Assembly: GCA_947470165.1 (NCBI GenBank)
Contig: CANISN010000020.1
Location: forward strand, 1-14,473
Origin: Burkholderiaceae bacterium
GTDB taxonomy: Bacteria > Pseudomonadota > Gammaproteobacteria > Burkholderiales > Burkholderiaceae
Reading direction: 5' to 3'
DNA: 14,473 nucleotides
Shown: piece after piece, positions 2,692 through 8,360 of the stretch
Position numbering within the stretch: the stretch's first letter is position 1
Layout of the letters: each line of letters starts with the position of its first letter
The notes under the pieces: generated by a model
What the model was told of the DNA's origin: nothing
Seen by the model: the letters and a program-made list of their open reading frames with translations, nothing else
The model's database searches: none
Program-made: the position numbers and the translations under genes

Positions 2692-2719
2692 TTGTTTAAA
2701 TGGTTAATCGTGTTAAATT
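2692..2719 (+). promoter_or_regulatory. candidate sucA promoter
   Basis: TTGTTT (2692-2697) is spaced 16 bp from TAAATT (2714-2719). The -10 is preceded by TG at 2711-2712, an extended -10 arrangement. Initiation near 2726 would give a leader of about 100 nt that includes the whole folded region before sucA. The hexamers are imperfect, so the call is tentative. Confidence 0.35.
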
Positions 2720-2745
2720 AGCAGAGTTAGCAGTAGCACAGATCA

Positions 2746-2818
2746 ATTCGTGAAGCGGTGTAGCCGCGTATCGAGTGGTTATAACCACAGTTTTTATTCG
2801 GGAAACCCGATGAAAGGT
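2746..2818 (+). promoter_or_regulatory. sucA RNA motif-like 5' leader (candidate riboswitch)
   Basis: Three consecutive hairpins precede sucA. The first has an outer stem ATTCG/CGAGT (2746-2750 with 2772-2776) and an inner stem GCGG/CCGC (2755-2758 with 2764-2767). The second is the perfect palindrome GTGGTTATAACCAC (2775-2788), a 5-bp stem with a TATA loop that shares two bases with the outer stem. The third is TCGGG-AAA-CCCGA (2798-2810), extended through a 2x2 internal loop by GTTTTT (2790-2795) pairing with AAAGGT (2813-2818), which is the sucA Shine-Dalgarno sequence. A conserved sucA RNA motif is known in the sucA 5' UTR of Burkholderiales and overlaps the ribosome-binding site; its ligand is, to my knowledge, not established. 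The pairings are read directly. The match to that family is by position and architecture, not by covariance search. Confidence 0.7.
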
Positions 2819-2825
2819 GAGCATC

Positions 2826-5681
2826 ATGATGCAGGATCAAAGGGATAGCTCCTATCTCTTCGGCGGAAACGCACCCTACGTAGAGGAACTCTACGAATCC
2901 TACTTGCACGATCCAGCTTCTGTAGCTGATCACTGGCGAGATTATTTTGATAATGTGAAGCAAATCCCAGCGGTGGATGGCTCGTCTCGAATTGATATTG
3001 CCCATGGTCCCATTGTTGCTTCCTTTGCTGAGCGGGCCAAGCAAGGCCCTATTAGAACGGTTTCCGATTCGGCTGATTCTGCGATGGGACGCAAGCGCGT
3101 TGCTGTTCAGCAGTTAATTGCTGCCTATCGAAATGTTGGTAACCGCTGGGCTGATATTGATCCCTTGAAGCGTACAGAGCGTCCAGATATTCCTGAACTA
3201 GATCCTGCCTTCTATGGTTTTACCGACGGCGATATGGATATCGTCTTCAACACCAGCAATACTTTCTTTGGCAAGTCGGATATGTCCTTGCGAGATATAT
3301 TGCAGGCATTACGTCAAACCTATTGCGGCACTTTGGGTGCTGAGTACATGTTTATTGCCGACCAAACTATCAAAAAATGGTGGCAAGAAAAATTAGAGTC
3401 CATTCGCTCAACCCCGAGATTTAATGTTGATGAGAAACGCCAAATTTTAGATCGCGTTACTGCGGCAGAAGGTTTGGAGCGTTATCTTCAGGCAAAGTAC
3501 GTAGGCCAAAAACGTTTCTCTCTTGAGGGTGGTGAGAGTTTCATCGCTTGTATGGATGAATTAATTCGTGAGTCTGGCGCTAAGGGCGTTCAGGAGATTG
3601 TGATTGGGATGGCTCATCGTGGTCGCCTCAATGTCCTGGTTAACGTTTTAGGCAAAATGCCATCAGATCTTTTTGCTGAATTTGAGCATAAGGGCCCAGA
3701 AACATTACCTGCAGGTGACGTGAAGTATCACCAAGGTTTCTCAAGCGATATTTCTACGCCAGCCGGTCCAGTGCATTTGTCATTAGCATTTAATCCTTCC
3801 CATTTAGAAATCGTTAACCCAGTCGTGGAAGGTTCTGCTCGTGCCCGTATGGAGCGCCGTGGTGATATGTTGGGTGAGCAAGTGTTGCCAGTATTAGTGC
3901 ATGGCGATGCTGCGATTGCAGGTCAGGGTGTCATGCAAGAGACTTTAGCGATGGCGGAAGTACGTGGCTATTCAACTGGTGGCACGATCCACATCGTAAT
4001 TAATAACCAAATTGGTTTCACTACATCCGATCCCCGCGATTTACGCTCTAGCTTGTATTGCACTGACATCATGAAGGTGATTGATGCTCCGGTCTTGCAT
4101 GTCAATGGCGATGATCCTGAAGCCGTTGTCTTGGCAACTAAATTGGCAGTAGAGTTCCGCACGCAATTTCATAAAGATGTGGCCATTGATATTGTTTGCT
4201 TCAGAAAGTTAGGTCACAACGAGCAAGATACGCCTGCGATGACGCAGCCCTTGATGTACAAAATCATCTCAGAGCATCCCGGTACTCGAAAGTACTATGC
4301 CGATAAGTTGGAGGCTCAAGGCGTATTACCGGCTGGCACTGGTGACCTGATGGTGAAAGAGTACCGCGCCGCGATGGATGCGGGTAAGCAAACTTCAGAC
4401 CCTGTATTAAGTAACTTTAAAGGTAAGTTCGCTGTCGATTGGTCGCCTTTCTTGAATAAGAAATGGACTGATGAGGCAGATACAGCCATTCCATTAACGG
4501 AATGGAAGCGCCTAGCAGAGCGGGTCTCTACAGCTCGAGAAGGATTCAAGGTTCACCCCTTAGTCGAAAAGGTCTTGAAAGATCGCGCAGCAATGGGTCG
4601 CGGTGAAACCAATATTGACTGGGGCATGGGTGAGCACATGGCTTTCGCATCCTTGGTAGCAAGTGGTTATCCAGTCCGCCTATCAGGCGAGGATAGTGGT
4701 CGTGGCACCTTTACCCATCGTCATGCGGTTTTGCATAATCAAAACCGCGAAAAATGGGATACCGGTGTTTATATTCCCCTGCGCCACATTGCTAAAGACC
4801 AGGCTCCATTTTTGGTGATCGATTCGATCTTGTCCGAAGAGGCTGTGCTGGGTTTTGAGTATGGCTATGCTGCTTCAGAGCCCAACACCTTGACTATTTG
4901 GGAAGCGCAGTTTGGCGATTTTGCGAATGGTGCTCAAGTAGTGATTGATCAATTTATTGCTTCTGGTGAAGTGAAGTGGGGTCGTGCGAACGGCTTGGTC
5001 ATGATGTTGCCTCACGGTTATGAAGGACAAGGTCCAGAGCATTCATCGGCACGTTTAGAACGCTTTATGCAGTTGTGCGCGGATACCAATATGCAGGTCA
5101 TTCAGCCAACAACAGCGTCACAGATTTTCCACGTATTACGCCGTCAAATGATTCGACAGTTCCGTAAGCCGCTGATCTTGATGACACCAAAATCTTTATT
5201 GCGTAATAAAGAAGCAGCCTCACCATTAACGGATTTCACGAAAGGTGGATTCCACACGATCCTGCCTGAGCGCGATGAGGCTATTGAAGGTAAGAAGGTT
5301 ACTCGTTTAGTTATGTGTTCCGGCAAGGTCTATTACGACTTAGCTAAGACGCGTACTGAGAAAAAACTAGATGATGTTGCGATCATTCGTTTGGAGCAAC
5401 TATATCCATTCCCGCATAAAGCATTGAATGCTGAGTTGAAGAAGTATCCGAACCTCGAAGAGGTGGTGTGGTGTCAGGATGAGCCGCAAAACCAAGGCGC
5501 CTGGTTCTTTGTTCAGCACAATATTTTGGAGAACATGTCTGAGGGCATGAGGTTGGCATATGCAGGTCGCCCAGCATCAGCCTCACCAGCCTGTGGTTAT
5601 GCTCATCTCCACCAAGAACAACAAAAGTCTCTTCTTACGGCTGCATTCGCAAAACTAAAGGGTTATGTCATTACGAAGTAA
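2826..5681 (+). CDS. sucA: 2-oxoglutarate dehydrogenase E1 component
   Basis: E1 is the thiamine-diphosphate-dependent subunit that decarboxylates 2-oxoglutarate and passes the succinyl group to the E2 lipoyl arm, in the cytoplasmic TCA cycle. The 951-aa product has the usual N-terminus (LFGGNAPYVEELYESYLHDP), which helps hold E1 in the complex. GMAHRGRLNVL starts near residue 261. The ThDP/Mg segment runs from HGDAAIAGQG (from His359) to INNQIGF (392-398). The transketolase-like C-terminal half carries GEDSGRGTFTHRHA (about 621-634) and VVWCQDEPQNQGAW near the end. Length and motifs are normal. GTG 2817 is also in frame, but it lies inside the Shine-Dalgarno AAAGGTGA (2813-2820), so ATG 2826 is chosen; ATG 2829 is adjacent. 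It is first in a sucA-sucB-lpdA-zapE operon, and its leader appears able to sequester the ribosome-binding site. Confidence 0.97.
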   Translation: MMQDQRDSSYLFGGNAPYVEELYESYLHDPASVADHWRDYFDNVKQIPAVDGSSRIDIAHGPIVASFAERAKQGPIRTVSDSADSAMGRKRVAVQQLIAAYRNVGNRWADIDPLKRTERPDIPELDPAFYGFTDGDMDIVFNTSNTFFGKSDMSLRDILQALRQTYCGTLGAEYMFIADQTIKKWWQEKLESIRSTPRFNVDEKRQILDRVTAAEGLERYLQAKYVGQKRFSLEGGESFIACMDELIRESGAKGVQEIVIGMAHRGRLNVLVNVLGKMPSDLFAEFEHKGPETLPAGDVKYHQGFSSDISTPAGPVHLSLAFNPSHLEIVNPVVEGSARARMERRGDMLGEQVLPVLVHGDAAIAGQGVMQETLAMAEVRGYSTGGTIHIVINNQIGFTTSDPRDLRSSLYCTDIMKVIDAPVLHVNGDDPEAVVLATKLAVEFRTQFHKDVAIDIVCFRKLGHNEQDTPAMTQPLMYKIISEHPGTRKYYADKLEAQGVLPAGTGDLMVKEYRAAMDAGKQTSDPVLSNFKGKFAVDWSPFLNKKWTDEADTAIPLTEWKRLAERVSTAREGFKVHPLVEKVLKDRAAMGRGETNIDWGMGEHMAFASLVASGYPVRLSGEDSGRGTFTHRHAVLHNQNREKWDTGVYIPLRHIAKDQAPFLVIDSILSEEAVLGFEYGYAASEPNTLTIWEAQFGDFANGAQVVIDQFIASGEVKWGRANGLVMMLPHGYEGQGPEHSSARLERFMQLCADTNMQVIQPTTASQIFHVLRRQMIRQFRKPLILMTPKSLLRNKEAASPLTDFTKGGFHTILPERDEAIEGKKVTRLVMCSGKVYYDLAKTRTEKKLDDVAIIRLEQLYPFPHKALNAELKKYPNLEEVVWCQDEPQNQGAWFFVQHNILENMSEGMRLAYAGRPASASPACGYAHLHQEQQKSLLTAAFAKLKGYVITK

Positions 5682-5724: not shown

Positions 5725-6912
5725 ATGGCTATTTTTGAAGTTAAAGTCCCCCAACTCTCCGAGTCAGTAGCCGAAGCTACTTTATTGCAATGGAAAAAGA
5801 AAGTCGGCGATGCTGTTGCTCAAGATGAAATTTTGATCGAAATCGAAACTGATAAAGTGGTGCTGGAGGTTCCTTCACCGTCCGCTGGCGTTATTACAGA
5901 GATTGTGATTGCTGACGGCGGCACTGTAATTGCCGAGCAGTTGATTGCAAAGATTGATAGTACTGCTGTTGCCGCTGCCCCAGTAGCTTCTGCTGCCCCA
6001 GCTGTAGCTCCCACAAAAGCTGCTCCTGCTGCTAAATCATCTGCCGCCGCCGCTCCTTCGGCTACAAAAATCCTTGCTGAACATAATCTAAGTGCTGACC
6101 AAGTTGCAGGCTCTGGTCGTGATGGCCGCGTTACTAAGGGTGATGCACTTAACGCAGTAGCAGGCGGAGCAAAAGCTGCTGCATTACCAAGTACACCAAT
6201 TCCAATGGGCAATCGTCCAGAAGAGCGTGTGCCGATGAGTCGCTTGCGTGCTCGTATTGCTGAGCGTTTGCTTGAGTCCCAGGCTAACAACGCTATATTG
6301 ACTACATTCAATGAAGTTAATATGGCACCAGTAATTGCCATGCGTAATAAGTACAAAGATCAGTTTGAAAAAGTGCATGGCGTGAAGCTGGGGTTCATGT
6401 CCTTCTTCGTTAAGGCTGCAACTCATGCATTGAAGAAGTTTCCATTGCTCAATGCCTCTGTTGATGGCAATGATATTGTTTACCATGGTTACTTTGATAT
6501 CGGTATCGCAGTGAGCTCACCGCGTGGCTTGGTAGTTCCAATTCTGCGTGATGTTGATCAAATGAACCTAGCAGATATTGAGAAGAAGATTGCCGAATTT
6601 GGCCTTAAAGCGCGTGAAGGTAAATTATCCTTAGAGGATTTAACGGGCGGTACATTCTCCATCTCTAACGGCGGTGTATTTGGCTCAATGCTTTCTACTC
6701 CAATCATTAATCCTCCACAATCTGCCATCTTGGGTATTCATGCAACTAAAGAGCGTGCTGTGGTTGAGAATGGTCAAATTGTGATTCGTCCCATTAATTA
6801 CTTAGCCTTGTCATATGATCATCGCATCATCGACGGTCGTGAGGCAGTACTTGGTCTGGTTGCAATGAAGGATGCTTTAGAAGATCCTTCACGTCTCCTC
6901 CTTGATTTGTAA
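5725..6912 (+). CDS. sucB: 2-oxoglutarate dehydrogenase E2, dihydrolipoamide succinyltransferase
   Basis: E2 forms the core of the 2-oxoglutarate dehydrogenase complex and transfers the succinyl group from lipoamide to CoA. The 395-aa protein is modular. One lipoyl domain (residues 2-77) has the lipoylated Lys44 in ETDKV. A flexible Ala/Pro-rich linker (about 79-111) follows, then the peripheral subunit-binding domain (about 111-146, [12 protein letters not shown] to [10 protein letters not shown]) and the catalytic acyltransferase domain from about 165. The catalytic motif DHRIIDG places His366 and Asp370 near the C-terminus. A single lipoyl domain and the C-terminal RLLLDL are typical of succinyltransferases rather than pyruvate-complex E2. 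The ATG is preceded by AGGAT, 43 nt after the sucA stop, so co-transcription is likely. The GC-rich alanine linker makes a long antisense open frame that is not a gene. Confidence 0.97.
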
Positions 6913-6923
6913 GAGGGAAGATC

Positions 6924-8360
6924 ATGAGTCAATCATTTGACGTATTAGTTATTGGTGGTGGCCCTGGTGGCTACATTGCAGCAATTCGTGCGGCCCAATT
7001 GGGGTTTAAGGTTGCCTGCGCAGAATCCAATGCTTATGACGATCCAAAAGGTGAGCCACGCTTAGGTGGTACTTGCTTAAACGTTGGTTGTATTCCATCA
7101 AAGGCTTTACTTGCCTCTTCTGAAGAGTTTGAGAAGATTAGTCATCATGTAGCAGACCACGGCATTACCGTTGGTTCTGTAAAGCTCGATTCCAACAAAA
7201 TGCTTGCGCGTAAAGACGCGATTGTGACAAAGATGACTGCTGGTATTCAGTTCTTGTTCCGTAAGAATAAAATTACTTTGCTCAAAGGACATGCGTCATT
7301 TGAAAGTAAGGGTACTGATGGATACCAAATTAAGGTGGATGGTAAGGATAAGGGCATTTTTACGGCCAAGAACATAATTATTGCTACAGGATCTAAGGCA
7401 CGTCATTTACCGAACATCCCAGTAGATAACGTATTAATCAGCGATAACGAGGGTGGCCTCAAGTTTGATTCCATTCCAAAGAAACTGGGTGTGATTGGTG
7501 CTGGTGTGATTGGCCTCGAGTTGGGTTCTGTCTGGCGTCGTGTTGGTTCTGACGTCACTATTTTGGAAGCGCTTCCCACTTTCTTAGGTGCTTGCGATCA
7601 AGGTATCGCTAAAGAGGCGCAAAAGATCTTTACCAAACAAGGCCTCAAAATGAATATGGGTGTCAAGATTGGTGAAGTCAAGGTGGATAAAAAAGGTGTT
7701 GCTGTTCACTACACTGACAGCGATGGTAAAGCTCAAAAATTAGAGTGCGATCGATTAATTGTTTCTGTTGGTCGCGTGCCAAATACTGAGAAATTAGGTC
7801 TCGATAAGATTGGTCTCAAAGTAGATGAGCGTGGCTTCATTCCAATTGATGACCATACCTGTGCTACCGCAGCACCCGGTGTTTATGCGGTTGGTGATGT
7901 AGTGCGTGGACCAATGTTGGCACACAAAGCAGAAGACGAGGGTGTGTTGGTTGCCGAAATCATTGCAGGTCAAAAACCACATATCGATTACAACTGCATT
8001 CCTTGGGTTATTTATACCGATCCAGAGATTGCTTGGGTTGGTAAAACGGAAGAGCAGCTCAAGCAAGCTGGCATTGCTTACAAGGCTGGCCAGTTCCCAT
8101 TTGCTGCCAATGGTCGCGCATTAGGTATGGATCGTGCCGATGGTTTTGTCAAAGTGTTGGCCGATGAAAAAACGGATGAAATTTTGGGCGTCCATATTAT
8201 TGGCCCCAATGCTTCTGACTTGATTGCTGAAGCTGCAGTGGCGATGGAATTTAAAGCAGCGGCTGAAGATATTGCTCGTATCTGTCATCCACATCCAAGC
8301 TTATCAGAAGTGGTTCGCGAGGCAGCATTAGCGACGGATAAACGTGCATTAAACATGTAA
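6924..8360 (+). CDS. lpdA: Dihydrolipoyl dehydrogenase (E3)
   Basis: E3 is a flavoprotein that reoxidises dihydrolipoamide on E2 and passes electrons via a disulfide and FAD to NAD+. The 478-aa product starts with the FAD-binding GGGPGG (11-16). The redox-active pair is Cys51 and Cys56 in GGTCLNVGCIPSK. A second dinucleotide fold for NAD+ is seen at GVIGAGVIGLELGSVW, and the second FAD signature at GVYAVGDVV. The C-terminal dimer interface holds the catalytic His457 and Glu462 (HPHPSLSE). All key residues are present. GAGGGAAG just before the ATG is a strong ribosome-binding site, and only 11 nt separate it from the sucB stop. The E3 is probably dedicated to the 2-oxoglutarate complex here, though E3 is often shared with other 2-oxoacid dehydrogenases and the glycine cleavage system. 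Confidence 0.96.
   Translation: MSQSFDVLVIGGGPGGYIAAIRAAQLGFKVACAESNAYDDPKGEPRLGGTCLNVGCIPSKALLASSEEFEKISHHVADHGITVGSVKLDSNKMLARKDAIVTKMTAGIQFLFRKNKITLLKGHASFESKGTDGYQIKVDGKDKGIFTAKNIIIATGSKARHLPNIPVDNVLISDNEGGLKFDSIPKKLGVIGAGVIGLELGSVWRRVGSDVTILEALPTFLGACDQGIAKEAQKIFTKQGLKMNMGVKIGEVKVDKKGVAVHYTDSDGKAQKLECDRLIVSVGRVPNTEKLGLDKIGLKVDERGFIPIDDHTCATAAPGVYAVGDVVRGPMLAHKAEDEGVLVAEIIAGQKPHIDYNCIPWVIYTDPEIAWVGKTEEQLKQAGIAYKAGQFPFAANGRALGMDRADGFVKVLADEKTDEILGVHIIGPNASDLIAEAAVAMEFKAAAEDIARICHPHPSLSEVVREAALATDKRALNM

Follow-up and report, generated by a model that had tools for sequence, protein, structure and literature searches.

A sucA RNA motif leader from a Polynucleobacter clade in which the conserved internal loop is missing and the Shine-Dalgarno half is kept

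Does the structured leader in front of this sucA gene still sense whatever its RNA family senses? The window, by which we mean the whole 14,473-nucleotide (nt) stretch analysed (contig CANISN010000020.1 of the Burkholderiaceae bacterium assembly GCA_947470165.1), carries directly before sucA a copy of the sucA RNA motif (Rfam family RF01070), a motif reportedly described in 2007 and said to have been an orphan ever since. The closest genus-named SucA relatives, among the best 80 of 592 SucA loci, place the window in the genus Polynucleobacter. We find that this copy keeps the helices of the family and the half next to the Shine-Dalgarno (SD) region, while the conserved internal loop is missing from it and from its sampled relatives in one Polynucleobacter clade. 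The window copy is probably a derived member of the orphan family, either sensor-defective or re-specialised.

The family assignment was proposed in a first-pass annotation made from the letters of the sequence, and an Rfam covariance search bears it out. RF01070 matches the plus strand over its whole length (2741..2823, model positions 1-83) with 52.4 bits, above the cut-off of 40, and an E-value of 1.3e-7; the element is slightly longer than the 2746-2818 first given. The match stands directly before sucA in a member of the Burkholderiales, which is where the family is expected, with the sucA ATG at 2826, and it is the sole RF01070 match in the window's genome (82% complete). At E-values up to 0.001, the family appears in 37 of 300 sampled genomes of the order, in 113 of 121 Polynucleobacter genomes (94 of 95 good assemblies), in 134 of 151 genomes of one other family, and in 3 of 321 genomes of the class, all three within the order and one of them the window's genome. 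Among the named SucA loci (best 80 of 592), 77 have a whole-length match upstream, and the remaining three are on contigs that start inside the gene or at most 27 bases from it. We aligned 143 leaders, 96 fetched via the RNA independently of SucA and 47 via SucA itself. All of them lie 1-8 nt before an open frame (142 with ATG, one with GTG) whose product matches the window SucA in 143 of 143 cases, and none precedes another gene, a count that covers fetched matches only. A search for second copies in ten genomes up to E 10 returns one strong match per genome, in each case its sucA leader, and 11 weak matches besides, the best with E 0.03. Judged by sequence, the window leader is a true member of the known orphan family.

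The first-pass annotation described three adjacent hairpins, which we confirm between 2747 and 2819, and the RF01070 helices P1, P1b, P2 and P3 are present in the window. The outer stem P1 (2747-2750 with 2772-2775) encloses P1b (2756-2759 with 2763-2766), the two spanning 2747..2775; P2 is a hairpin of 5 basepairs, GTGGT/ACCAC (2775-2779/2784-2788); and P3 is the hairpin UCGGG-AAA-CCCGA (2798-2802/2806-2810), all on the plus strand. The closing stem P0 has two non-standard pairs out of three in the window, with the match still above the cut-off. The 121-nt stretch 2720-2840 folds better than 200 of 200 dinucleotide shuffles (z -4.49), into a minimum-free-energy (MFE) structure that is not the family fold. 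In the window, the pairs of P3 have predicted probabilities of 0.96-0.99 except for the outermost (0.54), and those of P2 reach 0.14-0.24, low because 2741-2745 competes for 2776-2780. The MFE folds of the 121-nt and 83-nt stretches disagree with each other and with those of most folded relatives, and we treat them as prediction noise.

Covariation was analysed in alignments (A3, A4) that were fitted to the family structure and lean towards it. Over 97 distinct leaders, 84.8% of the pair cells are standard, compared to 74.4% in shuffles and 36-49% in slid controls. All five pairs of P1 change on both sides, with 98.3% of cells paired, and so do all seven model pairs of P3, with 84.5% of cells paired. 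Of the five measures of P1 and P3 covariation, four are matched in none of 500 shuffles and one in 5 of 500, and all five are above the slid controls. P1b and P2 are weakly tested by covariation because their G-C pairs hardly vary: all 97 leaders have the two G-C pairs of P1b and 94 have its U-G pair, while P2 has an invariant first G-C pair and, in second place, G-C in 92 leaders and G-U in 5. The compensatory changes that the first-pass annotation suggested looking for among relatives are thus found for P1 and P3, and the check has little to act on in P1b and P2.

The window departs from the family in the internal loop between P1 and P1b. This loop, UAA/UGUC, is a feature that we take from the alignments, not a curated criterion of the family. 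Its 5’ strand is UAAn or CAAn in 36 of 49 distinct leaders from outside Polynucleobacter and GAAG in the window (2752..2755, plus strand); its 3’ strand is UGUC in 37 of the same 49 and CGUA in the window (2767..2770, plus strand). As for the 12 leaders outside the genus without UGUC, six are one base off, L021 is further off, and five (L171, L172, L174, L187 and L188) were chosen for their low score. These five low scorers are possible further independent losses of the loop.

Within Polynucleobacter, UGUC is present in 29 of 32 sampled rows outside the clade, the exceptions being L052 (UGCC), L204 and L208, and in 0 of 62 rows inside it (0 of 34 when hand-picked rows are removed). The 5’ strand reads UAA, UAG or CAA in 30 of the 32 outside rows and 4 of the 62 clade rows. 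The 49 distinct clade leaders have 20 different 3’ strands. Columns 15 and 27, whose pairing would close the old loop, form a standard pair in 36 of these 49 leaders and in 0 of 21 outside, more often than shuffled columns do. In the window this pair is G2755-C2767. The GCGG/CCGC stem (2755-2758/2764-2767) of the first-pass annotation does exist, and it includes this loop-closing pair, which is absent from the family form.

These leaders are a non-random sample, formed by the best scores of each search or by SucA loci (best 80 of 592), to which 40 hand-picked regions were added, low scorers and then others lower on the list; hand-picked rows number 28 in the clade (of 62) and 3 among the 32 other Polynucleobacter rows, and the counts describe the sample, not prevalence. 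Some named rows and other rows are probably the same genome, and we use distinct leaders where stated. The clade is defined on a tree of the sucA coding sequence, not on the leader. Its support is 89 for the 62 rows in a quick tree with many short rows, 99 for a 50-row part, and 100 for 30 rows in a tree of long sequences. L050 is too short for the tree; it is placed outside the clade by its leader alone, counted among the 32, and left out of the rate test.

On this tree, the four columns of the loop 3’ strand take 41 parsimony changes in the 62 clade rows and one in the 29 tree-defined outside rows, that is, 0.73 and 0.04 of the rate at four-fold sites (19-23 of them in the test). The 5’ strand takes 31 changes in the clade and 8 outside (0.55 and 0.30 of the four-fold rate). 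P2, the anti-SD strand, P3, the P3 loop and the SD together take 28 changes in the clade and 37 outside. The contrast between the loop core (both strands) and these segments, clade versus outside, gives a Fisher p of 3.1e-9, in which the P2 loop, P1 and P1b are omitted and the parsimony counts are not strictly independent events. An initial rate test, in which the outside group was picked by its UGUC letters, was circular and was replaced by the tree-defined groups. By these alignments, the most conserved unpaired part of the leader, with UGUC its most conserved loop strand outside the clade, is eroded in the clade, and the SD-adjacent part is kept.

The helices are kept as well. In the clade, 239 of 245 cells are paired in P1, 193 of 196 in P1b, 196 of 196 in P2 and 243 of 245 in inner P3. 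Pairing within the clade is above shuffled columns for P1 pairs 8-34 and 9-33 and for P1b pair 16-26; it is not above them for P1 pair 11-31, and the other pairs hardly vary, with most P2 pairs invariant. P1 staying paired in the aligned rows shows that the 5’ hairpin still matters in the clade, if only for folding. P0 is reduced, with 58 of 147 cells paired in the clade compared to 47 of 63 outside.

In the 3’ half, the SD region AAAGGUG (2813..2819, plus strand) has one change in 12 SD-segment columns over the 62 clade rows. The first-pass annotation paired GTTTTT (2790-2795) with AAAGGT (2813-2818) at the ribosome-binding site. The two can pair, but with three G-U pairs among the six and predicted probabilities of 0.00-0.05, and a shifted register is preferred. 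In the MFE fold of the 83-nt stretch, 2791-2797 pairs with 2810-2816 and 2788-2789 with 2818-2819, and most of the SD is still covered. The anti-SD strand in this MFE register is CAGUUUUUAU (2788..2797, plus strand), its U-run following P2 as in a terminator, and CCACAGU[UC]UU is found there in 49 of 49 distinct clade leaders. In the relative L062, which has a U to C change at 2792, the MFE fold adopts the register first proposed, with C-G replacing U-G. The leaders with a lost core and a U-run average 0.75 in SD pairing compared to 0.53 in anti-SD shuffles, and those passing 0.05 are 2 of 49 on pairing and 13 of 49 on energy.

The explanation that we favour, with moderate confidence, is that this is the cis-acting leader of a sucA-sucB-lpd mRNA, homologous to RF01070, whose 3’ hairpin would fold over the ribosome-binding site and so influence how translation starts. 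Elsewhere in the family, the domain formed by P1, the internal loop and P1b would be the probable sensor, with the UAA/UGUC loop recognising a ligand or a protein. In the Polynucleobacter clade, the loop appears to have been freed from constraint and partly closed by new pairs. Family-type sensing would then most likely be gone from the window copy, leaving a structured leader that may attenuate weakly or constitutively. A loop without constraint next to a 3’ half that is kept is what one would see had the clade abandoned a recognition site in the 5’ loop, with the 3’ half still serving translation initiation. The data show the homology, the helices, the loss of the loop and the retention of the 3’ half; we infer that the loop is where binding takes place, that translation is controlled through SD pairing, and that sensing was lost rather than changed. 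The broader proposal, that loss of the recognition loop cut a sucA-family riboswitch off from its ligand throughout the clade while the helices and the SD-covering half were kept, we hold only tentatively. The loop is also missing from a second lineage (L204 and L208), and it varies in leaders of low score outside the genus.

Several results weigh against the explanation by loss of sensing. The retention of P1 and P1b implies that the 5’ domain still does something in the clade. Two loop positions, columns 13 and 30, are slow in the clade, with 4 changes each compared to 8-14 at the other six. When L204 and L208 are added to the outside group, its 3’ strand takes 7 changes, its rate rises from 0.04 to 0.23 and p becomes 1.2e-6. 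The SD helix P4 has 51.7% of its cells paired in the model register, in part because clades shift that register; by eye, CACU, CGCU, CAGUUUUU and CAUC can each face GGUG. SD pairing in the window 3’ hairpin is 0.74 compared to 0.52 in 60 shuffles of the anti-SD strand, 18% of which equal it, and in the CCUGCA-type group it is below the shuffled value (0.44 compared to 0.50). As SD pairing is not clearly above shuffles, SD occlusion is a prediction.

Other explanations account for parts of the same data. The window copy could be an ordinary ligand-sensing sucA riboswitch, the view of the first-pass annotation, which suggested perhaps a tricarboxylic acid cycle or nitrogen-status metabolite; its loop would then be a mere spacer, with the binding site in invariant elements such as the GG/CC of P1b and P2. 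Those invariant G-C pairs are all kept in the clade and P1 pairing is maintained through changes, as such a switch would have it; yet UGUC, the loop strand most conserved outside, evolves in the clade at 0.73 of the four-fold rate, and P0 is reduced together with it, so that we consider this unlikely, while giving it some weight. That a small RNA or an RNA-binding protein, and not a metabolite, is the main partner of the leader strikes us as rather improbable, given in-leader helices that covary, which a small RNA site does not need. Variant riboswitch classes exist in which the helices are kept and the loop is changed, and the clade loop, which is purine-rich (GAAA or GAAG with CGUA, UGUA, CAGA and others), might in the same way recognise a different ligand. 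The change of the loop next to retained helices and 3’ half, and the partial conservation of columns 13 and 30 as A, fit a re-specialised variant; 20 different 3’ strands in 49 distinct leaders, with no single new consensus, do not, and we find it distinctly unlikely.

The remaining two alternatives concern the U-run. P2 and the U-run after it could form a weak intrinsic terminator, the clade having shifted toward transcriptional attenuation. A terminator-like pattern, the hairpin at 2775-2788 and a U-run after it, is found within 2775-2798 (1 found, 0.2 expected), 38 of 49 clade leaders have pair 36-49 as an extension of P2 compared to 5 of 21 outside, and the U-run is kept in all 49 distinct clade leaders. 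Against this, the hairpin is weak (between -2.3 and -6.1 kcal/mol for five U-run leaders), a C or G interrupts the U-run in some clade leaders, and the U to C change of L062 creates a C-G pair with the SD instead; we regard a terminator as very unlikely. To an RNA thermometer of the fourU kind we give hardly any credence: U2791-U2795 does lie opposite the SD region and beside a stable hairpin, but the predicted SD accessibility in the window stays at 0.20 to 0.22 between 10 and 45 C, on which ground we rejected the fourU candidate, and the 7 Rfam matches up to E 1 include no thermometer family.

If sensing has indeed been lost, natural variants of this kind would outline the ligand pocket of the orphan riboswitch and supply matched controls for finding its ligand. 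Nucleotides that are dispensable in a large clade with its helices paired point to the likely recognition site. Canonical leaders would be suited to ligand screens, and clade leaders would be natural negatives. The first-pass annotation called the window copy a useful member. Without the conserved loop, the likely recognition site, and two of the three P0 pairs, it is a poor choice for a ligand search, and its use is as part of a natural variant series. In the available portions of the papers cited here, its further statement that no ligand is established agrees with PMC3766115, which lists the motif with a “?” for ligand, with PMC7011215, which gives the ligand as unknown and the motif RNA as more abundant on nitrate, and with PMC4603805, in which the motif “probably constitutes a riboswitch”. 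PMC4603805 also reports a 118-nt sucA leader with a mapped start in B. cenocepacia, which shows that a relative is transcribed. In the open-licence literature searched, as far as its text was available, we find no ligand report for a 2-oxoglutarate, ketoglutarate, succinyl-CoA or sucA riboswitch, and the accessible parts of that literature on the sucA motif and on Polynucleobacter riboswitches give no description of the loop loss. According to the part available of PMC9731577, enteric bacteria repress sucA post-transcriptionally under nitrogen limitation, and RNA control of this node is thus known elsewhere, by another route.

The gene behind the leader encodes the 951-residue SucA, 2-oxoglutarate dehydrogenase E1 (2826..5681, plus strand; TIGR00239, 1211 bits), and is followed by sucB (5725-6912; TIGR01347, 553 bits) and lpd (6924-8360; TIGR01350, 547 bits). 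Upstream lies an extended -10-like promoter element, TGTTAAATT (2711..2719, plus strand), and TG[TCG]TAAA is found within the last 60 upstream bases in 61 of 62 clade rows; a sigma-70 consensus scan gives no pair at the 2711..2719 element. A transcription start near 2726 and a leader of about 100 nt would follow from its position. The palindrome GCATCATGATGC (2821..2832, plus strand) spans the sucA start codon and could form a 4-basepair hairpin, which appears in several MFE folds; 59 of 62 clade rows have GCATCATGAT, as do 8 of the 32 other Polynucleobacter rows. On the minus strand, a divergent gene (1832-2533) adjoins the sucA leader and encodes a 233-residue protein with an excisionase-type DNA-binding domain, which could be a regulator. 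The window also has a tRNA gene at 722-795, probably tRNA-Pro (anticodon GGG, by eye). Once Polynucleobacter is set aside, the closest named SucA relatives (L062-L141, among the best 80 of 592) include many from genera that we take to be Comamonadaceae, which is only a hint about the history of the gene.

Among known systems, the candidate structured RNAs sucA-II (RF01758) and sucC (RF01759) are likewise named for tricarboxylic acid (TCA) cycle genes and differ in being listed for Pseudomonadales and gamma-Proteobacteria, according to the part of PMC2864571 available; neither has a match in the window up to E 1. The icd-II motif shares with the window leader the genus Polynucleobacter and a TCA cycle gene, and has a three-stem junction with the ribosome-binding site in the first stem (available part of PMC8632094, where a text search finds no mention of sucA). 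Its gene is icd, and by eye the fetched icd leaders have no sequence in common with the sucA core. In the window's genome, the monomeric icd gene (L242, G000:C17:2352-4574, minus strand) has upstream a leader with GATGATTTAAAAT and a GAGGAAA ribosome-binding site, for which no Rfam family reaches its cut-off, and which by the description in that portion of PMC8632094 is probably the icd-II candidate riboswitch of Polynucleobacter. A strict pattern for this type of leader before monomeric icd, searched after two other isocitrate dehydrogenase families, is found in 9 of 14 core-lost genomes having the gene and 0 of 5 core-kept genomes, with near forms, by eye, in three more core-lost genomes (G031, G341 and G393); it is also found in G306, G307 and G378, where the sucA loop was not read. 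We rejected a general link between core loss and this leader, as the separately core-lost G339 and G396 carry another icd leader. The closest known system is RF01070 itself, which the window leader resembles in its whole-length match, its gene, its position directly before the start codon and its helices P1, P1b, P2 and P3, and from which it differs by the missing UAA/UGUC loop and most of P0, by a U-rich anti-SD strand, and by an extra palindrome at the start codon.
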